From contig JAGTXO010000016.1 of NCBI GenBank assembly GCA_019448385.1, forward strand, positions 558,001-622,000: a stretch of DNA of 64,000 nt. The letters are read 5' to 3'. Source of the DNA: Diacronema lutheri (Eukaryota; Haptophyta; Pavlovophyceae; Pavlovales; Pavlovaceae). Under the pieces are notes generated by a model that did not search any database, had not been told where the DNA came from, and worked only from the letters and a program-made list of their open reading frames with translations. Of this stretch, positions 4,210 to 64,000 are shown one piece after another; position 1 is the stretch's first letter; each line of letters begins with the position of its first letter. The translations under genes were made by a program, and so were the position numbers.

Positions 4210-5049
4210 TCAGGCGGCCGACACAGCCGCGCCAACAATGCCGCCGGCGGCGCCGGCGGCAGCCGCGTGCTTGGTGACGTGCACGGTCATCGCGCGTTTG
4301 AACTTGCCGTACGACATGCTCTGAAAGTAAACGGTGCCAGGGCCGGTGAGCGTCGAGTTGAACAGGCCTTCGCCGCCGCAGCAGCACGTGATGCAGCTGC
4401 CGGCGCGCCTGATGCCGAGCTTTGCGGTCGACTGCCACGCGACGACGGACTCGGTGTCGACGACGATCACCTCGCCCTCGGCGAGCGTCTTGGACATCAG
4501 CGTGCCCATCGCCGCGAGGAAGGCGGTGCCTTCGCCTTGGATCGTCTGGTTGCAGCAGCCCTGCCCCGAGAAGCAGCAATTGACAAAGGTGTTGAGCTCA
4601 AAATTGACGCGGATGTCGCCCGTCGACGCCATGAAGGCGCCGCTCTTCGTGCGGTACTGGTCCTCGCCGCGCATGTGCAACGGGATCACCTTTGCGGGGA
4701 AGTTCGGCGTCAGCCCGATTGTCGCGGGCGCGTCGCCGTGGTTGGTGTAGTGGTCCATCAGGCAGCCCTCGCCGGAGCAGCAGCGGCCAAACATGTTGTC
4801 AAAGTTGACCTTGGCCCTCATCGAAGGGTCCATCATCATCATGCCGCCTCGCTCGGAGATGACCTTCTCGCCGGCGGGCAGCGTGATGCTCACGAGCTGC
4901 ATGTCCGAGCCGAGCACCTCGTACTTGATGGGCAGATCAGCCCCGGTGCGCGTGGCGGCTGCGTTGAACTCGACCATGCCGAGCGCATTCTTCTTCAGCG
5001 GCGCGCCGCCCACGGGCGTGACGCTGGTACCAAAAATGCCTCCCAGCAT
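4210..5049 (-). CDS. AIM24 family protein (paralogue 1)
   Basis: This is an intronless gene of 279 residues starting at the ATG at 5049; upstream codons in frame lack an ATG. The protein belongs to the AIM24/TIGR00266 family, a beta-sandwich fold related to TRAP. Family members are linked to mitochondrial inner-membrane organisation in yeast, but the biochemical role is unknown. The repeating family motif GEG...GPGTV is present near the C-terminus. Cys-rich loops occur three times: RCCSGEGC, NCCFSGQGCC and TCCCGGEG. The last ~15 residues are Ala/Gly-rich. It is head-to-head with a paralogue at 5206, and the two share an inverted 5' leader. No targeting peptide is obvious. Confidence 0.85.
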   Translation of the reverse strand: MLGGIFGTSVTPVGGAPLKKNALGMVEFNAAATRTGADLPIKYEVLGSDMQLVSITLPAGEKVISERGGMMMMDPSMRAKVNFDNMFGRCCSGEGCLMDHYTNHGDAPATIGLTPNFPAKVIPLHMRGEDQYRTKSGAFMASTGDIRVNFELNTFVNCCFSGQGCCNQTIQGEGTAFLAAMGTLMSKTLAEGEVIVVDTESVVAWQSTAKLGIRRAGSCITCCCGGEGLFNSTLTGPGTVYFQSMSYGKFKRAMTVHVTKHAAAAGAAGGIVGAAVSAA

Positions 5050-5205
5050 TGGTAGTGGCGCCGAATGCACAAAACTTGAGACCCTGACGTCCACGAACTG
5101 TCAACGCTCGTTCCTGCTTTACAGAGGACTCTTCCACACCCGTATTTTACCATTCCACGACGTTGGGCAACCAAGCGTCTCAAGTTTTGGGGCTGCGGCG
5201 CCACC
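5050..5205. promoter_or_regulatory. Divergent AIM24 promoter with inverted leader repeat
   Basis: This 156-bp spacer separates the start codons of the two AIM24 paralogues. CAAAACTTGAGAC at 5070-5082 is matched exactly in inverted orientation at 5177-5189. GGCGCC follows at the same 7-base distance on each side (5057-5062 and 5197-5202). Read toward each gene, both leaders therefore run GTCTCAAGTTTTG, 7 variable bases, GGCGCC, then the ATG within 3-7 bases. The symmetry suggests an inverted duplication that included the leader, or a kept regulatory element. Confidence 0.7.
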
Positions 5206-5964
5206 ATGTCGAAGGCCGAGGTCGTCAAGGAGCAGGTGTTCCCGAACGGATACACGGTGATTGGGGAGCGCTACTGTATCTTGGACAAGTCGCTCGAGCC
5301 GGGCGAGGTCGTGCAAGCCGAGCGGGGCACGATGATGTACATGACGCCGAACGTGGAGATGTCTACCAAGTTCAACGGGACGGCCATCCTCTCGGGCGAG
5401 CCGATCGCAAAGGTGCACTTCACCAACAAGGGCACCGCAACGGAGCGCGTGGGGCTGGCGACCAACATGCCGATGGCGGTCGTCGTCCCCATCGAGATGG
5501 ACCGCCACGCGGGCATTCTCAACTGCAAGCGCGGCGCCTACATGGCATCGGACACGACGGTGCGCGTCATGCCCAAAATGCTGCCCTCCAGATCGTGCAC
5601 GGCGTGCTTGTGCGGCGGCATGCCGCCGGTCATCCAGGAGCTGCGCGGCACGGGCTTTGCCGTCATCAACGCGGGTGGCACCATCGTCAAGCAAGTGCTC
5701 GCCCCCGGGCAGGAGCTCATCGTTTCGAGCGACTCGATCGTCGCGTTCACCGACACCGTCGGCTTTGACGTTCGGCAGGTGGGCAGCCTGCTCACGTGCT
5801 GCTGTGGCGGAGAGGGCTTCTTCAACACTGTGCTCACCGGCCCCGGCACCGTGTACTTGCAGACGCTCTCGTACGAGCGGCTGGCCCGCCAGCTCGTGGT
5901 CGTGCACGAGGCGAACTCGTCGGGCGCCAGTGCGGGCGCGCTGGCCGCGGCGGCCAGCCAGTGA
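5206..5964 (+). CDS. AIM24 family protein (paralogue 2)
   Basis: This is a single-exon gene of 252 residues starting ATG in a good context (GCGCCACCATGTC). It shares the AIM24 fold with the minus-strand neighbour. The middle reads like paralogue 1 (GEVVQAERGTMMYM; GAYMAS) and the C-terminal TCCCGGEGFFN...LTGPGTVYLQ is nearly the same. A Cys-rich loop (SRSCTACLCGG) lies near residue 130. It lacks the N-terminal extension of paralogue 1 and the first Cys-rich loop. The pair is divergent around a symmetric spacer, which argues for an inverted tandem duplication and perhaps co-expression. The function of the family is unproven. Confidence 0.85.
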   Translation: MSKAEVVKEQVFPNGYTVIGERYCILDKSLEPGEVVQAERGTMMYMTPNVEMSTKFNGTAILSGEPIAKVHFTNKGTATERVGLATNMPMAVVVPIEMDRHAGILNCKRGAYMASDTTVRVMPKMLPSRSCTACLCGGMPPVIQELRGTGFAVINAGGTIVKQVLAPGQELIVSSDSIVAFTDTVGFDVRQVGSLLTCCCGGEGFFNTVLTGPGTVYLQTLSYERLARQLVVVHEANSSGASAGALAAAASQ

Positions 5965-44800: not shown

Positions 44801-45743
44801 CGAGTCGCTCATCCGGCTGGCCGAGGCGCACGCGCGGCTGCACCTGCGCGGCGCGGTGAACACGGACGACGTGGGCGAGGCTGTTCGACTGATGCGCGTT
44901 GCCACGCAGCAGGCGGCCACCGACCCGCTCACGGGCACGATCGACATGGACTTGATCGCGACCGGGCGCTCGGCGGCGGTGCGCGCGCCCCTGCCCCGCC
45001 CGCCATCCTCGCCTGCGCGCTCGCGCGCGCGCGCGCGCGCGCCCCCACCGTTGCGCGACGCGTGCGGATCCGGAAGGGCGTGCGGATCCGGAGGGGCGTG
45101 CGGATCTGGAGGGGCGTGCGGATCCGGAGGGGCGTGCGGATCCGGAGGGGCGTGCGGATCTGGAGGGGCGTGCGGATCCGGAGGGGCGTGCGGATCCGGA
45201 GGGGTGTGCGGATCCGGATGGGCGTGCGGATCCGGAGGGGTGTGCGGATCCGGATGAGCGTGCGGATCCGGAGGGGTGTGCGGATCCGGAGGGGTGTGCG
45301 GATCCGGAGGGGTGTGCGGATCCGGAGGGGTGTGCGGATCCGGAGGGGCGTGCGGATCCGGAGGGGCGTGCCGTGCGTGCACGCGCGCGGCGCGATGGCG
45401 CGCATCGTGCGGCGCATGGCGCACGCGAGCAAGTCTCCGCGCGCGTCCCACACTCACCCGCTGCGCGGCGCCACGCGCCCCGTCCTGCGGCACGCGCTGC
45501 TGCCCCGCCGCGCGCCATGTCCCGTCGCAGGCGCAAGGCCAAATCAACCAGCTTGCCGCGCGGCTGCTCGAGCTGCTCGGCGAAACGTCGACCGGCTCGA
45601 CGACGGTCGCCGCGCTGCACTCGGCCGTGCTCGAGACGGCGATCGTCAGCGTGTCGTACGCGCAGGTGCGCGAGGCGCTCGACCAGCTCAGGGGCGAGCG
45701 CTCGGTCACCGAGCACGCGGGCGTTGTCAGCCTCGCAAATTAG
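41804..45743 (+). CDS. MCM4: MCM4, replicative helicase subunit
   Basis: Exons are 41804-42239, 42386-43142, 43277-43723, 43838-44016, 44151-44484, 44675-44978 and 45531-45743, giving 889 residues. A Ser/Pro-rich N-terminal tail (a usual CDC7/CDK target) leads to [10 protein letters not shown]. The zinc motif is CSLCHHG...CGSC. The AAA+ core has Walker [12 protein letters not shown], the block [16 protein letters not shown], Walker [11 protein letters not shown], sensor [10 protein letters not shown] and the arginine finger LLSRFDLIY. The C-terminal part ([22 protein letters not shown]) and a winged-helix tail complete it. GLTAYVTKD and the MCM4-like [12 protein letters not shown] favour MCM4 over its paralogues. 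The last intron (552 bp) contains a long 18-bp minisatellite. Confidence 0.95.
45056..45372. repeat. 18-bp minisatellite in the last MCM4 intron
   Basis: The unit CGTGCGGATCCGGAGGGG repeats about 17 times with single-base variants (GATCTGG, GGATGGG, GGTGTG). The period is a multiple of three and both strands stay open across it, so it appears as an R-I-R-R-G-V repeat if translated. It lies wholly inside intron 44979-45530. Confidence 0.9.
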
Positions 45744-46005
45744 ATGCATGGCGATTGGCGGAGCCGCGCCACGCGTATGCCTCGCCAGCCCGGCCGGACG
45801 CGCGGCCGGTCGGTCGTCGGGGCTGTGTGCGACGCATGCGGCTCGGCGCGCGAGTGCGCACGCGCGCTCTCGCCCGGCTCCCGGTCGCCGGCGCCCGGCC
45901 GGACGGTCGGCCTAGTTGTGAGGCTGCGTAGGTCTGTGCACAGTACGATAAGTTTAAAATTATTCTGGTTGCGGTTTTTTCACGAAGTGGACAGTACTCA
46001 TAAAT
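45744..46005. other. MCM4 3' flank, AT-rich end
   Basis: The first ~190 bp is GC-rich and featureless. The last ~65 bp (from about 45940) is AT-rich and ends with TACTCATAAAT (45995-46005), the left copy of the direct repeat that flanks the retroelement array. I see no gene here. Confidence 0.5.
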
Positions 46006-47037
46006 TTTAGGGCCCTTTTTGAACAGCTGCGAGGCGCCGTGGTCCCCGTCGGCGCGGCGCGCGCCGGCGCGGCCGTGCCGGCCGGCAGCTTCGGAACGCC
46101 GGCTGCCTTGACGGCGCCTGCCTTAGCCATCCAGGCTGCGCCCTCGCGCTCTGCTGGCCGCGCTCCGCGCGCCCCGCCGCCCCTGCCCATCGACTGCGCC
46201 GGCACCGCGAACAACGTACTTTTCGCCCCGGTCGGTGGGTTTGGGGGTGGCGGGGCGCGCGCGCACGGCCGCACGAGCGACGGCGGCGTGGCCTTCTCTA
46301 CGACGAAACCTTCGCTTGCGACGGCTGCGCCCTCGCGCTCTGATGGCCGCGCTCCGCGCGCCCCGCCGCCCCTGCCCATCGACTGCGCCGGCACCGCGAA
46401 CAACGCACTTTTCGCCCCGGTCGGTGGGTTTGGGGTTGGCGGGGCGCGCGCGCACGGCCGCACGAGCGACGGCGGCGTGGCCTTCTCTACGACGAAACCT
46501 TCGCTTGCGACGGCTGCGCCCTCGCGCTCTGCTGGCCGCGCTCCGCGCGCCCCGCCGCCCCTGCCCATCGACTGCGCCGGCACCGCGAACAACGTACTTT
46601 TCGCCCCGGTCGGTGGGTTTGGGGATGGCGGGGCGCGCGTGCGCGGCCACGCGGCCAGCATCGCGGCGCTTGCCACGCTGGCGGCGGGTGGCGGTACGCT
46701 TCGCGGCGGCGGCAGGGGGCTGCGACGCGGCGGGGAGGGCGGCGGCTCGCTGGCGGCGGGCGTCGCGCTCTGCAGCGGCGGCGGGCGGCTTGGCGACGTG
46801 GCAGGCGGCGGCTCGGGGGTGGCGGTCGTCGCCGACGATCTTCGGGCCTCGGCGTGCGCGTGCGCGTCGGCCGGTGGTGTGATTGACGGCGGCCACCGGT
46901 GCGGCGGCGCGCGGGCGGCGGCGCGCGGTGGCTAGGCGCGAGTGGGCCTTTGGGCCTGCTCCGCCTGGCGCCTCGCTGCGCACTTCCTGACCCCATCTGT
47001 TGACCCGTCGGAAAGCGTCGTTAGTATATAAATATAT
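46006..47037 (+). mobile_element. Retroelement copy A, truncated, with 189-bp units
   Basis: This is the first member of a same-orientation array. It begins near TTTTGAACAGCTGCGAGG, has three 189-bp tandem units (starts 46135, 46324, 46513; the third partial), then a Gly/Ala-rich coding tail ending RGG-stop at 46935. A 3' end follows with GTCGTTAGTATATAAATAT (about 47017-47037). The open frame on the plus strand has no ATG and appears to enter from a missing 5' part. The 3'-anchored, 5'-truncated form and the A/T tail suggest a LINE-like (non-LTR) retroelement family, or a non-autonomous relative of one. It is a relic, not a host gene. Confidence 0.7.
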
Positions 47038-49319
47038 CCAGCCCGCGCTCGTGGCCCTCGACGCCGAGCTCGCCGCGGTCGGTGGGGCCGCGCGCGCAGG
47101 TCATGACGACGTCTACGCCGTCGGCCCGCCCGCTCTCGTCGCCGCTGCGCTCTCGCGCTTCGAGGCTGCGCTCGCCGGCCTCGGCCTTCACGCCAATCTG
47201 GCCAAGTCGGCGTGCTGGATCGATCCGCGCAGCGCTGATGCGCTCGAGGGCTGCCGGGGGGCCGTTTCCCTCGGCTCGGTGGCGGACCCGGCCACTGGCG
47301 CTCTCCACTACGGCCTCAACATCTACGGCGTGCCGGTGGGCTCACCTGGCTACGTGGGCAGGACACTCGCGACCAAGACCGACGAGATCGCTGGCATCTC
47401 GAACAAGCTGATCACAACGCTCGGCTCGTCGGCCAAACAGTCGCTGTGGGTCCTCACCCGCCGCTCCACCATCTTCCGCTTCTCCTACTTGATCTCCCAC
47501 TCGTACCTGTCAGACTCCCTGCAGGCCGCGGCTGCCTTCGACGACATCCTCGCCCGGCAGGCTACCGTCGCTCTCGGCGTCTCCGTCTCGACGGATGCCA
47601 TCGCGAGCCGCCGGCTGCCGCTCCCGATTGCGATGCATGGCACCGGCCTGCGCAAGCAGGTCGACCTCGCTCCCGCCCTGATCTGGAGCGCCGCCAGCCT
47701 CGCCCTGCCGCACCTGCTCGACACGCGCGCCGCGGACGGCTCGGTCCTGGAGGCGGGCGTCCTCGACCGGCCTGCCATCGCGGCGCGCGTCGGGCACGAC
47801 GCCTTCGCCGACATGGACGCGCACGGGTGGCGCTCGTTCCTCGCCTCGGGCTCGCGCCTGGGGCGCGATCTCGCCTCCGCCTGGCACGCCATGCAGGCCG
47901 AGCTCGGCGGCGGCCAGGGCGACACGGAAGTGCGCGTCCTCCGCCTGCCGCCCGGCTCCGTCGCGCCCGCCGCTCCCGCCGCCGGACGCCGGCCTAGCCT
48001 CTTGGCCGACATCACTGGCGACCGCGAGCGCTGCCGCTTCGACATGCTCAACGCTGAGCACGCCGCCATGCCGCCGGGCTCGCGCCCACGCGGCCTCTGG
48101 TTTGGCCTCGGCAAAGAGAGCGGCCTCTTCCTCGAGGCCCTGCCGCGAGCCTATGCCGCTTTCTCTCCGGCGGAGTGGGCCGAGGCGGTTGCGCGCTACT
48201 TGGGTCTGCCGAGCCCCGTGTGCGCGCAGCTCGCGGCGGCGGGCGCGCGCCTCGCGCGCAGCGGCAGCCAGCGCCCGATCCCGGTCGATGCGTTCGGCGA
48301 CGCGCTCGCGGCGGCACCGGGCGTCGCCCACGACCACGTCGCGAAGCTTCGCCACGACCCCGCTCTCAACCTGCTCGCCTCGCTGGCTCGCGGATACGCC
48401 GGGACCTACGCGCGGCGCGAGGACGCGGACATCTTTGGCTCCGTGCTCGCCGGCGTGCCGCCGGCCGGGCGCGCGGCCCTGCGTCGTCGGCGCGTGCCCA
48501 CCGTCGATCTCGTCGTAGTGCTCAACGGTGCGGGCTCGGCCCCTCAGCTCGTGCAGACACTGTGCGAGCTCAAGTCGATCTCGTACTGCCCCACGCGCTA
48601 CGGCCAGTCGGACACGCGCCGCTGCCAGGCCGCTGAGCGGCGGGCGGCGGCCGTCGGCGGCGAGCGGCGGCGTGCGTGCGCTCAACTCGACGAGGAGCTC
48701 TTCGGCATGCAGCCGGGCCAGGTGGGCCCGATGCAGGCGCGCCTCAACTCGTTCCCGCCGATCCGCGCGCTGGTCATCGGCTCGTTCGGCGAGTGGTCGG
48801 CCGGCCTCGCCGACCTGCTCGTCACCTTCTCGCACATGGGCGCGGACGCGTGGATGGCGCGCATGGGCGCGCCCTCGCGCGACGTCGCCCGCGCGGCCCT
48901 CGAGCGCCACATGCGCCTCCAGCTCGCCGCGTGCGTCGTGCGTGGGCACGCGCAGCTCCTGCTCGCGCGCGCGCAGATGGCGCGCGGACAGGCGCCGCCG
49001 CACCGCCACGCGGCTCACGGCGTCCAGGCGGATGTGGACGCCTGCGGCGGTGTGGACGGCCTCTGCTTCCGGCGCGGCGACGGCGGCGGCGGCCGGCGGG
49101 GGCCGGCGAGGGGTGGCTAGGCGTGTGTGGGTGTCCGCCCATGACGCGTCCTGCCACGTCCTTGCCGTCCCGGCCGTTCCCGCTGCCGGCGTGCACAGGG
49201 TCGACGCCCTGATTTCGGCCTGATGTTGCGTGCGCCCTTTCGCTCGCTCCGTTTGTCCAGCCTCGGCCCCGTGCGCGCCCCTCCTGCTGACCCGCCTGTA
49301 AGCGTCGTTAGTATATAAA
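47038..49319 (+). mobile_element. Retroelement copy with reverse transcriptase remnant
   Basis: This abuts the tail of copy A. The plus-strand frame to 49120 encodes the C-terminal part of a reverse transcriptase: HDDVYAVGPPALV fits the catalytic (Y/F)xDD motif, followed by the thumb-like GLGLHANLAKSACW segment, a G-V-P-V-G-S block and a long connection region with LPIAMHGTGLRKQVD. The endonuclease, the RT fingers and any upstream ORF are missing, so it is 5'-truncated. The 3' end carries AGCGTCGTTAGTATATAAAT (about 49299-49319), the same tail as copy A. Family: probably LINE-like; the exact clade cannot be named from this fragment. Confidence 0.7.
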
Positions 49320-49700
49320 TGCCACGCTGGCGGCGGGTGGCGGTGCGCTTGGCGGCGGCGGCAGGGGGCGGCGACGCGGCGGGGAGGGCGGCGGCTCGCT
49401 GGCGGCGGGCGTCGCGCTCTGCAGCGGCGGCGGGCGGCTTGGCGACGTGGCAGGCGGCGGCTCGGGGGTGGCGTTCGTCGCCGACGATCTTCGGGCCTCG
49501 GCGTGCGCGTGCGCGTCGGCCGGTGGTGTGGTTGACGGCGGCCACCGGTGCGGCGGCGCGTGGGCGGCGGCGCGCGGTGGCTAGGCGCGTGTGGGCCTTT
49601 GGGCCTGCTCCGCCTGGCGCCTCGCTGCGCACTTCCTGACCCCGCACTTCCTGACCCCATCTGTTGACCCGTCGGAAGCGTCGTTAGTGTATAAATATCG
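49320..49700 (+). mobile_element. Retroelement copy B, severely truncated
   Basis: This starts abruptly at GCCACGCTGGCGGCGGG, matching an internal point of copies A and C (46669 and 50555), and runs to the shared 3' end with GTCGTTAGTGTATAAATAT plus an extra partial tail. Only the coding tail and 3' region remain. It is fused directly to the tail of the reverse-transcriptase copy. Confidence 0.75.
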
Positions 49701-50915
49701 TTAGTATATTTTGAACAGCTGCGAGGCGCCGTGGTCCCCGTCGGCGCGGCGCGCGCCGGCGCGGCCGTGCCGGCCGGCAGCTTCGAAACGCCGGCTGCCT
49801 TGACGACGCCTGCCTTTGCCATCCAGGCTGCGCCCTCGCGCTCTGCTGGCAGCGCTCCGCGCGCCCCGCCGCCCCTGCCCATCGACTGCGCCGGCACCGC
49901 GAACAACGTACTTTTCGCCCCGGTCGGTGGGTTTGGGGGTGGCGGGGCGCGCGCGCACGGCCGCACGAGCGACGGCGGCGTGGCCTTCTCTACGACGAAA
50001 CCTTCGCTTGCGACGGCTGCGCCCTCGCGCTCTGATGGCCGCGCTCCGCGCGCCCCGCCGCCCCTGCCCATCGAGTGCGCCGGCACCGCGAACAACGTAC
50101 TTTTCGCCCCGGTCGGTGGGTTTGGGGGCGGCGGGGCGCGCGCGCACGGCCGCACGAGCGACGGCGGCGTGGCCTTCTCTACGACGAAACCTTCGCTTGC
50201 GACGGCTGCGCCCTCGCGCTCTGATGGCCGCGCCCCGCGCGCCCCGCCGCCCCTGCCCATCGACTGCGCCGGCACCGCGAACAACGTACTTTTCGCCCCG
50301 GTCGGTGGGTTTGGGGGCGGCGGGGCGCGCGCGCACGGCCGCACGAGCGACGGCGGCGTGACCTTCTCTACGACGAAACCTTCGCTTGCGACGGCTGCGC
50401 CCTCGCGCTCTGATGGCCGCGCTCCGCGCGCCCCGCCGCCCCTGCCCATCGACTGCGCCGGCACCACGAAACACACACATTTCGCCCCGGTCGGTGGGTT
50501 TGGGGGCGGCGGGGCGCGCGTGCGCGGCCACGCGGCCAGCATCGCGGCGCTTGCCACGCTGGCGGCGGGTGGCGGTGCGCTTCGCGGCGGTGGCAGGGGG
50601 CTGCGACGCGGCGGGGAGGGCGGCGGCTCGCTGGCGGCGGGCGTCGCGCTCTGCAGCGGCGGCGGGCGGCTTGGCGACGTGGCTGGCGGCGGCTCGGGGG
50701 TGGCGGTCGTCGTCGACGATCTTCGGGCCTCGGCGTGCGCGTGCGGGTCGGCCGGTGGTGTGGTTGACGGCGGCCACCGGTGCGGCGGCGCGCGGGCGGC
50801 GGCGCGCGGTGGCTAGGCGCGTGTGGGCCTTTGGGCCTGCTTCGCCTGGCGCCTCGCTGCGCACTTCCTGACCCCGCACTTCCTGACCCGTCGGAAGCGT
50901 CGTTAGTATAAATAT
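49701..50915 (+). mobile_element. Retroelement copy C with four 189-bp units
   Basis: This has the same organisation as copy A: TTTTGAACAGCTGCGAGG start, tandem units beginning at 49827, 50016, 50205 and 50394 (the last partial), a Gly/Ala-rich coding tail ending RGG-stop at 50816, and the tail GTCGTTAGTATAAAT. It is nearly identical to copy A over most of its length, so both are recent. The direct repeat TACTCATAAAT (50916-50926) follows and matches 45995-46005 before the array. Confidence 0.75.
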
Positions 50916-51019
50916 TACTCATAAATAACAACAGTAGGCGCTTTCTCCCCGGGCGGGTGGTGCAGGTTGCCCCAGGGAGGCGTGCGCCGGGAGCCCGTGA
51001 GCCCAGAGGCGCGGGGAGC

Positions 51020-51842
51020 ATGGCGCGCGACTGCTCGCCGTACGCGGATGTGCAGACGGTCTTCATCCCGTTCTTCCTCGCATGGGTGTTCGCCCTCGCC
51101 TTTTGGGTTTACAACACCTTCTTCCGCAACCGCGACGTGGCGAACAGCCTGCACAAGGGGCTTACCTGGCTGCCCGCGGTCGAGTGCGTCTACACGTTCC
51201 TGTGCATCTTCTACTACGCGGCATGCCCGTGGGAGTCCTTTGGCTCGCAGCTTGTCGCCGCCGCGCTGCTGATGGTCGTGATCCTCAAGGAGCCGCTCAA
51301 CCTCCTCTGCCTTCTTCTCGTCTCGAAGGGCTGGTGCATCACGCGCGACTCGCTCTCCTACTCGGAGAACCGGGTGATCGTCGTGACCGTGCTGCTGCTG
51401 TATGCCTCCGTCGTCTTCGAGCTCTTCGCGCCCAACAACGCCACGTCCGGTGCGGCGCGCGCGCGCCCGCCCCGCCGCCGCGCCGCGCGCGGCGTGCGCC
51501 GACCATCGCCGCCCGCCGCCCTCCGCCCGCCTGCCGCGCGCGCCTTGCCCCTGTGCGTGTGCTTCCTCCCTCCTTGCCCCCCCCTCGCCCAGTCTTCTGG
51601 ATGATTCCAATCATCGTTGCATATATCGTTATGCTCGTGAATGCCAGCATGTCTATGTGGACCAACCTGCGCATTCTCAAGTCGCAGCTCCTCGCGATGG
51701 CGCAGCTCAACATCGACGCGCTCTCCACGCCCGCCTATGCGAAGTGCGCGCCCGCGCCGCGCGCCGCGTGCCGTTCGGCAAGCGCCTACGCTGCATGGGC
51801 GCCCGACTCTTCAATCTGCGTCTTCTGTGCACGATGTGTTGC

Positions 51843-54586: not shown

Positions 54587-57500
54587 TCAGGCCCCAGTCG
54601 CGCCAGCATGCCGGAGCTGCTCGTTGTAGGCGACAAGCAGCATCGGGTTCAGCGCGCGCACGCACGGGGCAAGCTGCGGCCACGTCTCGAGGCGCTGCAG
54701 CAGGCGCGCCGCGAGGGCACGCACCTCCGCCGCGCTGTGCAGCACGAGCAGCGCTACGGGCGTGAGCGCGCCAGTCGCGCACGTCGCGTCGAGCCCGCTG
54801 AGCAGGCCGACGAGCGACGCCTCGTCGAGCGCCGCGTCGAGCAGCGTCGCGAGCAGCTCGCACGCCTCGCCGCCGCTCAGCTCGGCGGATGCCGCGGCGC
54901 CCACCAGCACCTCGCGGCCGTCCGCTGCACCCGTCGAGACGCGCTCCGCCGCGCCCGCGCCGCCGTGCGGGGCCGCGACGCGACCGCCGCGCGCGCGCAG
55001 CCCGCGCAGGCGCTCAACCGCCGCGCGCGCGGCGCCGGGCGCGTCGGCGGCGTGGAGCTCGCCGCTCGCGGCCGCGCGGATCGCGCGCGAAAGGGCCGCG
55101 TTCGTGCGCGCCGCGCGCAGCGCGAGCCGCGCGTCCGCCGTCGAGGCGTAGGGCATCGCGGCCGCGAGCGCGACGGCGGGCGCGCGCGCCGCGGCCGCGC
55201 CGGCGCCGCCGCTCGCGACGAGCGCCGCGGCGGCGCTCGCGACGAGCGCGCGCGCGCGCTCGCGGAAGCACTCACGCACCCAACCCTCGGGCAGCTGTGC
55301 GCCGACGCCCGCAACGAGCCGCGTGCCGAGCGCCGCCTCGTCGGCGGTCTCGACCGCCCAGCCGGCGCCGTCACGCGCGTCGGCCGCGCCGCCCGCCGCG
55401 CCGCCGTCGTCGGCGCCGTGCGCGTCGCGTGCGGTCGGCTGCGTCCGGGGCGGGCGGAGCACCTGTCCGGTGTCCACGTCGCATAACAGATCCCACCAGC
55501 CTGCATGAAATCGTATTCATTGGGCAGGAGAGGGGAAGAGGGGGTGGGCTGGGCTGCTTGCGGGCCGCGCAAGATGGCAGCCACTCGCGCCGCGCGCGCG
55601 CGGGCGCGCGCGTGGGCGTGGGCGTGGGCGCGCACCCGTCCTGCACGCAAACATCGGGTTGGTTACACCCGCCACATAAGCGGGTACCTCCAAAAACGAT
55701 AGGTCGTTGAGGTTTGCATACGGGAATGTACGGCGCAGGAGGATCGGAGGAAGCGGCGGGCTGACGAGCAGCGGCGCGGCGAGCACGTGCGCGCACACGG
55801 CCGACGCGCGCTGCGCTTGGCCTGCGCGGCCACGCGCGCGGGGCGCAGGTGACCGCGTGGCGGAGGGGTGGGCGACCGACCGACCACGTGGCGGAGGGGT
55901 GGGCGACCGACCGACCACGTGGCGGAGGGGTGGGCGACCGACCGACCACGTGGCGGAGGGGTGGGCGGCCGACCGACCACGTGGCGGAGGGGTGAGGTCC
56001 ACGCGGTCAGGGCGCGGACGCGGGCAGGGCGAGCCCATGCGCCGGACGCGGGCAGGGCGCGGCCGTGCGTCGGACGCTCGGGCAGGGGGCGGCCGTGTGC
56101 CGGACGCTCGGGCAGGGCGCGCCCATGCGCCGGACGCTCGGGCAGGGCGCGCCCATGCGCCGGACGCTCGGGCAGGGCGCGGCCGTGCGTCGGACCAATA
56201 AATAATACGCGCTGGGCGCACAGGAGCGCGCGCTGGATTTGAACCGCCGCCGCGCCAAATGTGCGCACAAGCTGCGTCGCGCGCGCGTCGGCGAGCTCGT
56301 CGGCATCCAGGAAGCGCGGCACGCGCACCGCGATCGCTGAGCCGGCCCACAGTGCTGCGGTGGGCACGTGCGTCGGCGCACGCGGCGCGGCCGTGCCGGT
56401 GGCGAGCGGGCCGGCGCACGCGCCGAAGAAGCGCTCGGCCTCGCGCTCGAGCGGCGTCGGCTGCTCGAGCGCGAAAGCGGGCGCGCGAGGGGGCCGCGCG
56501 CAGGCACGATGGCGGAGGCGCGACGCCCCTTTTCAAATCGGACGGGATGGTGGAGGCGCGGCGCGGCGCGGCGGGTCGTGCACAACGCGCGCGCGCGCCC
56601 GATTTGAAAAGCGGCGGCATGCCAGCGCGCGAGGGCGGGAGCGCAGTGCGCACACGCGCACGCGCGCACGCACGCACGCACGCGTTGTTTCACCCGCCGG
56701 CCAACGCCGCGCGATGCGCCGAGCGCACGGGTGGCACCCCCGCGCTGCTCCCGCGCGGCTCCCGCGCGGCGCCCGCGCGGCGCCCGCGCGGCGCCCGCGC
56801 GGCGCCCGCGCGGCGCGAGGGCGCAGGCGCACCGGGCTGAGCGCGAGCAGGTCGACGGTGAGCAGCGAATTGTACACTTTCGCCGCGATCGCGCGCGCGG
56901 CGAGCGTGCCGCCCGCCGCACCGAGCAGCTCGCGCGCGGGCTGCGCGCCGCCGCCGGCGTGCGTGCCATTGGCCGCGGCGGGCTGCCGCACCGATTCGGT
57001 GGTCGTGCTGTCGGACACCGCGGCCGCCGAGTCGGCGAGTAACTGCTTCATCGCCTGCACGAGGACGGGCTGCCGGAAGGACACGGTGCGCGCGAGCGAG
57101 GCGCGCGCGCGCAGCGGCACGCAACGCGCGGTCGGCACACGACTGCACGGGCAGCGTGGCGGCGCGAGCTTGGCGGCGCGACGCCGTGCGCACCGCGTGG
57201 CCATGCGCGGGCGGCGCACCTTGTAGACGTGGAGGAAGCGGTCGGTAGTCGCGATGGCGATAGCCTTCACCTCGGCACCTCTCCGGATCCTCCGGTCCTT
57301 GCGCGTGCACACCAAGTTGAGCACCCACACGAGCGGGCGCGCGGCGCGCGCGCCGATGCGCTTGGGCGACGACGGCGAGAGGGACGGCGACGGCGACGCG
57401 CTCGCACGGGCGTCTACCATCCGCGCGAGCGCCGAGGCGCGATTGGCATCGTGCGTGGCGAACACGCCGTCCGAGCCCGCGCCCGCATCCGCGCCCGTGG

Positions 57501-58139: not shown

Positions 58140-59158
58140 ATGTCGCACACGATCGAGAGCGTGCACTTCCAACGGCTCGAGGAGTTCTTCTTCGGCGGTG
58201 AGGTCGCGGTCCGCCCGATCGCGCCGCCCGCGCGATCAAGCCGCGCGGGCAGCACGTGCGCTGCGCGCGCGCGGCTCTCAGCCAATCGCGCGGGTGCGCG
58301 CCGGCGTCGCACGCGCGCGTCGCTTCGACATGAATCGACTGCGCTCGCGCTTGCGCGCGTTGCGCATGCTTCCGCGCGCGTCTCGCGATCCGTCGCAGAG
58401 GAGTTCATCGAGTCGTTTGAGAAATGGGCGCAGCCGCACGTCGCGCTCTTTGACGACGAGGCGCTGACCGGGGGCGAGCAGAAGCTTGAGTTTATGCAAG
58501 TCTACACTGTGCGCTGCACGGTCGCGCGTGACGCTGCTCGCGCCGCGCCCGCGTCCTCGCGCTTCGCGCGCGCCACGCTGTCGAGACGTGGCCCGCTCTA
58601 CGCATTGTGCCTCCCGTGCGCTCCTCCGGCCGTGAAGCGCCGCTCACGCGCCCGCGCGCACGGCCGGCGCGTGGCGCTCCGTTTCTGCCAGGCATTCATT
58701 GAGCTGGTGCGTGGGCGGCGCACAGCGGTGCACCCCTCCTGACCGGCTGTCCCGAAGCTCGGTCGCACCGCGCCCTACCACGCGCGCTGCGTCCACGCGC
58801 GCTCTCGTGCGCTCCCACGCGTAGAATCATACAACATCAGACCCCCCCCCCCCCCCCCCTTCCCAATTTGCGCGCGGAACAGTACGAGAGCAAGCTCGAC
58901 GCGTTCGTCAAGGAGCAAGGGCTCGACATGGGCGCCTTCATGGAGGCGGCCAAGGCTGAGCTGCTCAAGGGGCAGGGCTCGGACGACTGGTCCGAGCGAT
59001 CGCCGCACGGCTTCATTCTGCGGGTCTCATTTTTTTTTTTTTTTCAGGCGACCGCGGAGTATGACACGTCCTTGCAAATGATGGCTGAGGTCGCGCAGCG
59101 CGTCAAAGGTGAGGAAAACGATGCGCAGGGTGTGGCCCGTGTGGGCGAAGGAGAGTGA
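58140..59158 (+). CDS. BART-domain protein (CFAP36/ARL2BP-like)
   Basis: Exons are 58140-58197, 58399-58508, 58692-58706 and 58883 onward, with a 15-nt exon coding AFIEL. The joined protein reads FFFGGEEFIESFEKWAQPHV, an A-L-F-D-D segment, LEFMQVYTAFIELYESKLDA and FVKEQGLDMGAFMEAAKAEL. This aligns without gaps to the BART helix bundle of CFAP36, which binds ARL2/ARL3-type GTPases, so a ciliary or tubulin-folding role is likely. Exon 4 may contain a further 24-bp intron (59024-59047, GTCTCA then a T-run and CAG); if not removed it codes a Phe run. The stop at 59158 assumes no further splicing after residue ~135; a donor-like GTGAGG at 59109 leaves a longer tail possible. About 144-152 residues. 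Confidence 0.75.
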
Positions 59159-59312
59159 GGATTTTGATTTTGATTTTTCCCTTTTTGCTTTTCATTTTCT
59201 ATCCAGGAAGAATTATTAATTGTTTCTTCCCTAAATTTTTTTTGGGGGCCGTGAAGTCGGTCGGCTCGGACTACCGAGCACAACCTTGGACACTGCCGAA
59301 AGAGCAGCGTGC
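59159..59312. promoter_or_regulatory. AT-rich island upstream of the amidohydrolase gene
   Basis: About 90 bp (59159-59247) is strikingly T-rich, in contrast to its GC-rich surroundings, with GAAGAATTATTAATTG near 59208. It ends ~65 bp before the next ATG. It may be the 3' end of the BART gene, the promoter of the amidohydrolase gene, or both. Confidence 0.45.
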
Positions 59313-60804: not shown

Positions 60805-62461
60805 ATGGCCCTTGCGCGCTCACTCCGCCTGGCGTCGGCGCAGCGCGTATCGCCGTCGCCGCGCGACACGAAGCGCGCGACGCTTGCTACACTTTCGCGC
60901 CTCCTCGCGCCCGGCAGCCCTGTCGATCCTGCCGAGCAGCAGGCCGCGTGGGAGCGCGCGTTCGAGGACCTGATCCTCGACGAGCGGCTCGTCTTCGCCG
61001 AGCGCGCGCAGCTGCTCGAGCTGCTGCTCGGCTGGGCGGCGGCGCGTGCGCGCAAGCTCGAGGAGGACGCGCGCGCGCGCGCCGACGAGGCGTGCGTGCT
61101 CCGCGCCGAGGCCGACGCGGCCGCCGCGCGCGATGGCGTGGCGGGCGGGACACTCGGCCTTCCCCCGCTGCGCGCGGCGCGCGCCGGTGACGACGGCGAC
61201 GGCAGCGGCGCGAGCGTCGAGGGCGAGGGCGCGATGAGCGATCATGCCTTCACGCGCGCGCTCGTCGGCGAGCTTGAGCGCCTCTCGCCGCACGAGCACG
61301 CGGCCGCGCTCGCCGCGCAGTTCGCGGCCGTCGCCAACGGCGAGCGCCGTCGGCTGCTGCTCGTGTCCCTCCCGCGCCGGCTGCGCGCGGACGACGCGGC
61401 GGCGCTCGCGGCGGCGGCGGCGGAGGCGCTCGAGCCAGGCGCGCTCGTTGAGCACGCTGCGAACGCCACGGCCGCCGTGCCCGCCGCGCGCCTCGAGCCC
61501 GTGGTGCGCGCGCTGCTCGCGCGCGCCGCGGAGAACCACCTCGAGGCGCACGCGCCCGGCGTCTGGGCGCGGCTCACGCTGGAGATGGTCGGGCGGATGC
61601 GGCCGATCGAGCGGCAGGTCGCGCTGCACACCGCGCTCGACGCGCTCCCCGCCGACGAGGCCGAGCGCGTCTCGCGCGAGCGCGCGCGCCGGTATGCGCG
61701 CGCGGACGCGCGGCTGCGCGCCGCGCTCGCGCGCGAGCTGCTGGCGAGCGCCGCGGCGGCGCCGGGCGAGCCGACGGTCGGGAACGGCGCGGCGGGCGTC
61801 GGGCGCGTCGAGCTGATCGGCGCGTGTGCCGCCGAGCTGCTCGCCACCTCCGACGAGCGCGTCGCCGCGCTGTGCGCGCTGTGGGACACGCACGCGCCAC
61901 CCGACGACCGGCCCACAATGCTTGCGGCGTTGGTTCGACGCTCACCCATCGGCGCACGCGGGCCGTGCGTGCACGCGGCGTTGCAGGCGCTCGCGCCGTC
62001 GGACCGGCGGCGCGGCCTCGACGCCGCGCTCGCCGGCCTCGAGTCCGCCGAACGCGTCGAGCTGCTCGCCGACGCGCTCGCGCGCGCGCCCGAGCATGAG
62101 CGGCTGCGTGCCGTCGGCCTGTGCGTGCGCCGCGCGCGCGCGGCCGACGCGCTCGCGCTCGCGCACGAGGTGCACCGGCGGCTGGGCGGGACGGGCGAGC
62201 GCAACGCGGCGCGCGCGCTCGAGGCGCTCGCCTTCATCGCTCGCGGCGCCGACGGCGAAGCGGTGACGCTCGCGTTGCGCGCGATCTACCGCGGCCTCGC
62301 GCCGCCGAGCGCGCGCGTGCGCGCGCTGCGCGCGCTGCTCGGCGACGGCGGGCAGGCGGTGACGAGCGAGGCGGAGGCGAGCTGGATCCGCGCGTCCTTC
62401 GGCCCGAGCGCGCGCGCGCGCGCCGGCGGCGGCGGCGACGGCGGCGACGACGGCGACGGCG

Positions 62462-62515
<54 letters not shown>

Positions 62516-64000
62516 GCGGCGGCGGTGGTGTGCAGGCGCGCGACGGCCGCGGCGACGCGCGCGGCGCGGCCGACGGGGCCGGCGCGGTCGCGCGGTGGAC
62601 GGATCGCGATGTCGCGCTTGTCCACGATGGCTGCCGCGAAGGCAAGTCGCTCGCCTCACCGCTTGCTGATGCGGCCAGCGCCGCCATTGCTGATGCGGCC
62701 AGCGCCGCCATTGCTGATGCGGCCAGCGCCGCCATCGCTGATGCGGCGGCGGCCGCGGTCATCGAGCCTCTGCCGCCCGTCAACGCGCACGGCGACGGCG
62801 CGTTTGCGCCGTGGCACGTGCCGCCTGCGTGGCGCGAGCGGCTGGGCGAGGAGGTGGCTGGCGCGCCGTTCTACTCGGAGGAGCTCTTCAACCACACCTT
62901 CGCCGCGATGGTCGCGCAGCGCGTCGCCGACGCGCACGCCGCCGCCGCCGCCGCCGCCGCTGGCGGCGCGCGCGCGCCGGCGGACGGCGACGGCGCCGAT
63001 GCGGCGGCCGGCGCGCCGCAGCCGATGCCTCAGCCGATGCCTCAGCCGATGCCGCAGCCGATGCCGCAGCCGATGCCGCAGCCGATGGTGAGCGGCTGGC
63101 TGCTCGGCTTTTTCTACAAACATATCGGCGCGCGCTCGGCCGCGCGGCGCCACCTCGCCGGCTGGCTGCGCGCTGCGCGCGACCTGGCGCCCGCCTCTAC
63201 GCGCGCCGCGCTCGTCGCTGAGTGGTGCGCGGCGGGCGCGCACGGCGGTCCTCCCCGCCCGCCGCCGCCGCTCGCGCGCGACGCGCCGCCGAGCGTCGGC
63301 GCGCGCGTGGCGCGCCGCTCGGCGCGCGCGCAGCGCGCGTGCGCGCCCGTCGCGTCGGCCGCGTCGGCGCCCGTCGCGCCGGCCGTGCCCGCGTGCGCGT
63401 TCGACGCCGAGGCCAACGGCGGCGCCGGCGCCGGCGCGGCGGCTGCCGGCGGTGGCGGCCATCGTGTTTTAGCCGGCGCGCGTTCGCCGCTCGACGTGCC
63501 GTCGACCGGTGACGCATCGTCACTGCCGTCACTGCCGCCGTTCCTACCCGAACAAGCGCAGTCGCCCGCGCCCGCCAGCGCGTCCGCGCCGCTCTCGCCC
63601 GCGCCCTCGGCCCCGTCGGCGGCGGCCGACGATCAGGCCCCGTCGGCGTGCGCCCCGCTCGCGGACGGCGCCGGCGTCGCGTTCGCGTTCGAGATGGACA
63701 GGGTGCTCACGTTCGTCGTGGCGCGGCTCTGGCGCTCCGCCGCCGACGCGCGCGCGGACCTCGCTCGCCCGACCGATGCCGCGCCGTGCCTCGTGGCCCT
63801 CGCGCCGACCGCGCCAGCGCCGGTCGACAGCGCGCGCACGCCTCGCGGCGCCATCGCTGACGCGCTTGCCGCCGCGGCAGGCGCCAACGTGCTCAGCAGA
63901 CAGCGGGCCAAGGAGCTGCAGACCGCGCTGCACGCGCTGCGTGCCGCCGACCTCACCGCAGAGGCGCGCGCCGACGCGCAGCCGCCTGCCGACGGCGCGC
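60805..64000 (+). CDS. Large unknown protein, 3' end outside the window
   Basis: An uninterrupted frame of 1,065 codons runs from the ATG at 60805 to the window end; strong G/C preference at third positions supports it. The first ~140 residues include a charged helix (L-E-E-D-A-R-A-R-A-D-E-A). The region 150-520 is helical and Leu/Ala-rich (E-M-V-G-R-M-R-P-I-E-R-Q-V-A-L). A Gly/Asp run (about 545-580) is followed by an I-A-D-A-A-S-A-A repeat three times (62664-62745). Then come W-H-V-P-P-A-W-R-E-R-L-G and EELFNHTFAAMVAQR, a PQPM repeat six times (63019-63087) and GWLLGFFYKHIGARS. I recognise no domain. The neighbour upstream ends 87 bp away on the same strand. Confidence 0.6.

Follow-up and report, generated by a model that had tools for sequence, protein, structure and literature searches.

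Stacking of retroelements on themselves is already in print in the form of nested Zepp elements, tandem R1 elements and the template jumping of R2 proteins, and the array analyzed here, four head-to-tail copies at 46006-50915 of a 64,000-nucleotide (nt) stretch of DNA from the haptophyte Diacronema lutheri (contig JAGTXO010000016.1, positions 558,001 to 622,000; hereafter the window), resembles these known cases. According to the cited passages of these and the following papers, Zepp inserts in a nested fashion, targeting existing copies that are mostly 3' parts through 5' truncation, and Zepp clusters are centromeric in Coccomyxa and Chlamydomonas (PMC8226300, PMC3446292). In the 28S genes of Drosophila, tandem R1 elements form by insertion into a target duplicated by the previous copy (PMC2718515), and with endonuclease-dead R2 proteins, head-to-tail tandem repeats are the main class of 3' junctions in cells (PMC11371274). 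Further points of reference are GilM and GilT of Giardia, telomeric long interspersed nuclear elements (LINEs) that belong to the CRE clade by their reverse transcriptase (RT) (PMC10088271), and target-specific elements with a restriction-like endonuclease (RLE), one of which occurs occasionally in tandem (PMC4640811); target-primed reverse transcription has been reviewed (PMC2881922), and the share of LINEs and short interspersed nuclear elements (SINEs) has been reported for the haptophyte Tisochrysis (PMC5963040). Among the literature titles listed, none was on an element of the kind described here.

Four head-to-tail copies with a common tail

The block 45995-50926 was compared to its own sequence and to that of the entire window, and the joins were printed base by base; all conclusions rest on this one locus in one window. 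The four copies, all on the + strand, occupy 46006-47033 (copy 1), 47038-49320 (copy 2), 49321-49696 (copy 3) and 49709-50913 (copy 4), and every one of them ends in GCGTCGTTAGTATATAAAT, two exactly, one with one mismatch and one with two. The tails end at 47033, 49320, 49696 and 50913-50915, respectively; the tail of copy 3 is the variant GTTAGTGTATAAAT, and that of copy 4 is without one TA. When up to three mismatches are allowed, the tail 19-mer GCGTCGTTAGTATATAAAT has four matches in the window, all of them in the array, compared with none expected from 100 shuffles. An earlier note on this DNA had described four same-strand copies with a shared tail, and this description holds.

The block is bounded on both sides by TACTCATAAAT (45995-46005 and 50916-50926, + strand), a putative 11-bp target-site duplication. 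As the earlier note had claimed, the two flanks do match: no longer exact match exists between 45961-46020 and 50891-50960, and an 11-mer in common was obtained in only 10 of 20,000 composition shuffles (0.0005). The window contains CTCATAAAT at two positions only, 45997 and 50918, which are the outer ends of the array. On the left, about 11 nt (46006-46016) separate the flank repeat from the sequence that copy 1 has in common with copy 4; on the right, two nucleotides, AT, lie between the tail of copy 4 and the flank repeat.

The joins are tight without being uniform. The statement that each 5' end begins exactly at the preceding tail applies to one of the three internal joins, that between copies 2 and 3 (49320/49321), and fails for copy 2, which is preceded by 3-4 extra nucleotides (about ATA or ATAT, 47034-47037), and for copy 4, where the ∼12 extra nucleotides form a partial second tail, ATCGTTAGTATA (49697-49708). 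The 12-bp sequence TCGTTAGTATAT at 49698-49709 repeats 49305-49316, so that copy 3 has the same 12 bp on either side, a possible inner duplication.

No other copies were detected elsewhere in the window, where the only matches, at 62421-62584, are of low complexity (74-79% identity, in a GCG-repeat stretch). A conserved stem-loop is not evident in the 3'-terminal 51-61 nt of the copies (z = 0.35, -0.42, -1.41 and -1.41; of 200 shuffles, 123, 62, 21 and 20, respectively, gave a fold as good or better). An exact search of a prokaryote collection (genome_contigs) with the 20-nt tail gave no match. A tail 15-mer is present in 13 viral contigs, which, among the matches listed, have only 15-22 bp in common with the block; with an E limit of 1, neither of the array proteins matched these contigs.

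Two related families

The copies had been regarded as being of one kind. By sequence comparison, the array instead consists of two related families, copy 2 on the one hand and copies 1, 3 and 4 on the other hand, which share only 58 bp and ∼43 bp. The 58 bp surround the stop codon and are 79-81% identical (E from 7e-9 to 8e-8); the 43 bp at the 3' end are 86% identical between copies 2 and 1 (E 8e-8) and 63% identical, without gaps, between copy 2 and copies 3 and 4, which contain indels in this part.

Copy 2 is a 5'-truncated RT-like element. Its frame is read at 47033-49117 (695 codons, ∼693 of them within copy 2) and stops at TAG 49118-49120, 200 nt before the end of the tail; the G+C at the three codon positions (0.76/0.57/0.90) is as in a real gene. 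The truncation falls inside the reading frame, just before RT motif C: the stretch GHDDVYAVGP...GLHANLAKS (47099-47209) resembles RT motifs C and D, and the protein may have RT activity. The corresponding pattern, composed after the sequence was seen, matches only copy 2 in the six frames of the window and nothing in 300 shuffles, and a stricter second pattern had no match. The C-terminal part of the protein contains a D-x(19)-ELK stretch (48506-48574) found by motif search, a possible core of a PD-(D/E)xK-type nuclease; this piece has no family match in Pfam. In RLE-type LINEs (R2, CRE, NeSL and relatives), a zinc-knuckle motif precedes the nuclease. No relatives of the copy 2 protein were found in phage, viral and prokaryote collections by scans that reach close relatives only. 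Short-pattern matches, none of which was confirmed, numbered three in viral_contigs for the whole protein, three for its C-terminal 236 amino acids and 156 in genome_contigs; in five viral contigs that contain a degenerate RT-motif pattern, the best E against the copy 2 protein was 0.19 and the frames around the motif are unlike RT.

Copies 1, 3 and 4 make up the repeat-bearing family, with 93.7-97.8% identity in the main BLAST pieces (96-98% between copies 1 and 4) and as little as 92% in single repeat units. Within their common 3' part, 346 of 359 aligned positions are identical between copies 1 and 4 (13 differences; 5 gap columns excluded), 353 of 361 between copies 1 and 3 (8 differences; 16 gap columns excluded) and 350 of 361 between copies 3 and 4 (11 differences; 15 gap columns excluded). 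The stop codons, all TAG, are at 46933-46935, 49582-49584 and 50814-50816 in copies 1, 3 and 4, respectively. A 189-bp unit is repeated 2.7 times in copy 1 (46134-46648) and 3.7 times in copy 4 (49826-50529). These two copies begin at a common 5' start (46017 and 49709) with different sequences upstream, and they may be full length, because a defined RNA 5' end would produce such a shared start. The description of all copies as truncated is accordingly retained for copies 2 and 3, the latter starting at the position of 46672 in copy 1, whereas copies 1 and 4 need not be truncated.

Coding constraint is not apparent in the repeat-bearing copies. Copies 1 and 4 differ in 17 codons, 14 with a change of the amino acid (one of these at the 5' boundary) and three silently, and the changes are spread over the three codon positions as 5/8/7; in the last 258 bp before the stop, the numbers of changing and silent codons are 6/0 for copies 1 and 3, 4/2 for copies 1 and 4, and 6/2 for copies 3 and 4. 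The pattern between copies 1 and 4 fits a non-coding element moved by the enzyme of another element. Given the common 3' end together with the absence of coding constraint, the repeat-bearing partner was probably copied by an enzyme of the copy 2 type, that is, mobilized in trans by the RT-bearing element.

Several other identities of the repeat-bearing copies were considered. A role as part of a working gene is unsupported by the substitutions, despite the open frames of copies 1 and 4 and the shared stop-codon region. Two Pfam matches of the copy 4 frame lie far below the cut-offs (E 0.079 and 0.31) and were disregarded; against one of the viral contigs, the repeat frame was listed at E 7.3. 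A classical SINE is likewise unsupported: there is no Rfam match in 45700-51100 up to E 1, the window has no tRNA and the array lacks an exact B-box consensus, although a diverged promoter could escape this search, which did not extend to the A box.

Proposed insertion into targets that resemble the tail

The left flank repeat ends in CATAAAT, which resembles the TATAAAT of the element tail. On both strands of the window, ATAAAT occurs seven times: in the four tails, in the two flank repeats and once elsewhere (56198). At one place, and with the composition of the 80 bp left of the repeat, the chance of ATAAAT at the host flank of copy 1 is 0.0003, a post hoc figure calculated once the likeness had been seen. 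ATAAAT stands directly at the 5' boundary of two of the four copies, copy 3 and, if its extra 11 nt are counted as belonging to it, copy 1; at copy 2 the distance is 3-4 nt. The host site and the tail thus seem more alike than expected by chance, which suggests that the tail itself is an insertion target.

All four occurrences of TATAAA in the window are supplied by the array tails; targeting of TATA sequences in host promoters is unsupported by the host genes here, given that the window has no TATAAA outside the array. The sole ATAAAT outside the array belongs to CCAATAAATAATA, the surroundings of which are unlike the array tail and at which a region of 31-bp (4.6 copies) and 30-bp (5.9 copies) tandem repeats ends (55851-56204).

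We see about an even chance that the stack formed by LINE-type retrotransposition into targets resembling the element's own tail. The enzyme would prefer sites with ATAAAT at their end; TACTCATAAAT, such a site between two genes, would have received the first copy, the tail of which, TCGTTAGTATATAAAT, would have recreated the ATAAAT site, providing a landing pad. Later copies, one after another, would have entered there and primed on the matching tail, producing nearly seamless joins and stacking, and this in-register priming would hide the inner duplications at the other joins. The evidence that favors this scenario is the confinement of the tail 19-mer to the four copy ends, the single 11-bp repeat that bounds the block, and the 12-bp repeat around copy 3, such as entry into an older tail would leave. 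Nested Zepp and the stacking of R1 into its duplicated target are precedents. The LINE-type nature of the process is suggested by the RT-type motif and the coding codon phase of copy 2, and the array has the hallmarks of LINEs, namely a target-site duplication, a constant 3' end, variable 5' truncation and no long terminal repeats.

Several observations weigh against this explanation. Each of three serial insertions should have left an inner duplication, and there is one candidate only; that candidate leaves four nucleotides (AAAT) unexplained, and both halves of the 12-bp repeat are pieces of the conserved tail, so that their match is not independent proof. With no duplication at the other joins, in-register priming would be needed. 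The target preference is based on a single outside insertion and on a 6-mer picked after the site had been seen, and copy 4 has no ATAAAT directly before it. As for the enzyme, the copy 2 protein has no match in Pfam (E up to 1 for the whole protein and up to 10 for five pieces) or in PDB, matches one PHROGs family, of function not known (0.014), and gave a poor structure model made without relatives (mean pLDDT, the predicted local distance difference test, of 42.3). As for its partner, copies 1 and 4 retain long open frames terminated by the stop that copy 2 also has, the length of the repeat, 189 bp, is divisible by three, and a weak codon phase is visible in copy 1 (G+C 0.78/0.73/0.82), so that a coding past is possible.

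The main rival is template jumping, which would leave almost the same pattern as serial insertion at the tail; the proposal of the earlier note that new copies enter older tails is, for this reason, kept as the favored reading rather than the only one. A single insertion primed at TACTCATAAAT would have copied copy 4 first and then jumped from 5' end to 3' tail through copies 3, 2 and 1, a possibility that we regard as tentative and on the doubtful side. With fewer assumptions, it accounts for the single outer repeat, one duplication bounding all four copies, and for the tight joins, which connect a 5' end to a 3' tail through 0 to 12 extra nucleotides; the mixture of families needs only the presence of both RNAs. 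In the passages cited, R2 proteins switch templates in vitro, and their endonuclease-dead forms give head-to-tail repeats in cells (PMC11371274). However, four RNAs would be needed in one event, the 12-bp repeat around copy 3 would need slippage on the tail, and a host target ending in the ATAAAT of the tail is not predicted (0.0003 locally, post hoc). Because the stack is mixed, comparison of alleles could discriminate between serial insertion and template jumping.

Multiplication of copies by unequal exchange or replication slippage between tails, following one or two insertions, is unlikely. The common 5' start and the close similarity of copies 1 and 4 are compatible with it, and the varying repeat number implies that slippage or exchange does occur in the repeat-bearing family. 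However, host DNA lies to the left of copy 1 and a tail to the left of copy 4, with no evident common sequence before the 5' start, and because these sequences differ, a tail-to-tail exchange fails to explain copy 4; furthermore, copy 3 has a truncation point of its own and copy 2 belongs to the other family. An assembly artefact joining unrelated repeats is hardly credible: the array is known here from one assembly alone, but the same 11-bp repeat stands at both ends, the flanks run into an MCM-family gene on one side and a GOST-type frame on the other, and the copies differ from one another, sequence differences and unequal repeat numbers arguing against a simple assembly duplication.

If the tail does copy the target, a retroelement with a rare site could in this way confine itself to safe places, stacking on itself and sparing genes, and the array would illustrate how LINE clusters such as those at the centromeres of algae could arise, starting from small stacks within gene-dense DNA. 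The 3' ends of HeT-A act as a promoter for the downstream copy. It is a long shot that the tail here would be both a copy of the elements' own rare target and such a promoter, which would make the array self-seeding and self-transcribing within gene-dense DNA.

Genomic setting of the array

The array lies in gene-dense DNA, between an MCM-family gene and a GOST-type gene. The window has a GC content of 72.4% and is eukaryotic by its genes, because the MCM-family gene, perhaps MCM4, is readable with GT-AG introns (our own reading of the printed sequence). The block 45995-50926 lies 251 bp downstream of the stop of the frame 45258-45743, which is taken for the last exon of this gene and has itself no Pfam match, and 93 bp upstream of the first ATG in a frame that encodes a GOST-type membrane domain. 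Forty-three frames were picked by codon phase and 28 of these were scanned against Pfam; in three scans that together took in 29 frames, 20 matched a conserved family (E up to 1e-5 in two scans and 1e-3 in the third). The families include CorA, AIM24 (twice), GT90, RNA polymerase Rpb3/RpoA domains, MRG, pseudouridine synthase, cyclophilin, P450, PAN3, EMP70, Myb, HSP90, MCM, GOST and amidohydrolase, along with ATP_bind_1 from a separate scan. The two AIM24-domain frames are arranged head to head (4213-5100 on the - strand and 5080-5961 on the + strand). An 18-bp minisatellite of 17 copies (45060-45371) lies between the MCM lid-domain frame and the putative last-exon frame, and at 58842-59260, poly-C and poly-T runs and an AT-rich stretch lie within the GC-rich region, perhaps introns.

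The suggestion that the array marks a centromere or a chromosome end finds no support: it comprises four copies over 4.9 kb, its flanks are gene-dense, no further copy is present in the window and no telomere-repeat array was seen there. The sole TTAGGG-containing sequence on the + strand of the window is TTTTAGGG (46005-46012), at the inner edge of the left flank repeat; like the CCCTAA at 59229 and 60214, it is a single unit, probably there by chance.

Comparison with known systems

The nested tail-to-head copies are reminiscent of Zepp and ZeppL, the L1-type LINEs of green algae, and the likeness to Zepp that had been pointed out stands as far as nested insertion as a way of working is concerned. 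Zepp has a poly(A) tail. In contrast, the array tail is a fixed sequence (GCGTCGTTAGTATATAAAT, with 0 to 2 mismatches), two families are mixed, and four copies lie in gene-dense DNA rather than one cluster per chromosome. Copy 2 is without the region where the apurinic/apyrimidinic endonuclease (APE) would lie.

As in tandem R1, stacking would proceed through the site left by the previous copy. Unlike R1, in which a 14-bp duplicated host target lies between copies, the array has the element's own tail in this position, and its site is outside any recognized rRNA gene. An R1-like stacking into a duplicated host site was rejected, as the flank repeat is not found between the copies (CTCATAAAT being confined to the outer ends). 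The head-to-tail chain also resembles the products of R2 template jumping; unlike these, which come from in vitro reactions and engineered cells, it is a natural locus with mixed families. GilM and GilT form head-to-tail arrays as well. They are telomeric, in contrast to the array, in the window of which no telomere array was seen.

SINE/LINE partnerships share the 3' end, and likewise here an element without evident coding function has the 3' end of an RT-bearing one; unlike SINE partners, it measures ∼1.0-1.2 kb, carries 189-bp repeats and has no Rfam match, tRNA or exact B-box. In its way of working, the array is like the known cases of stacking.

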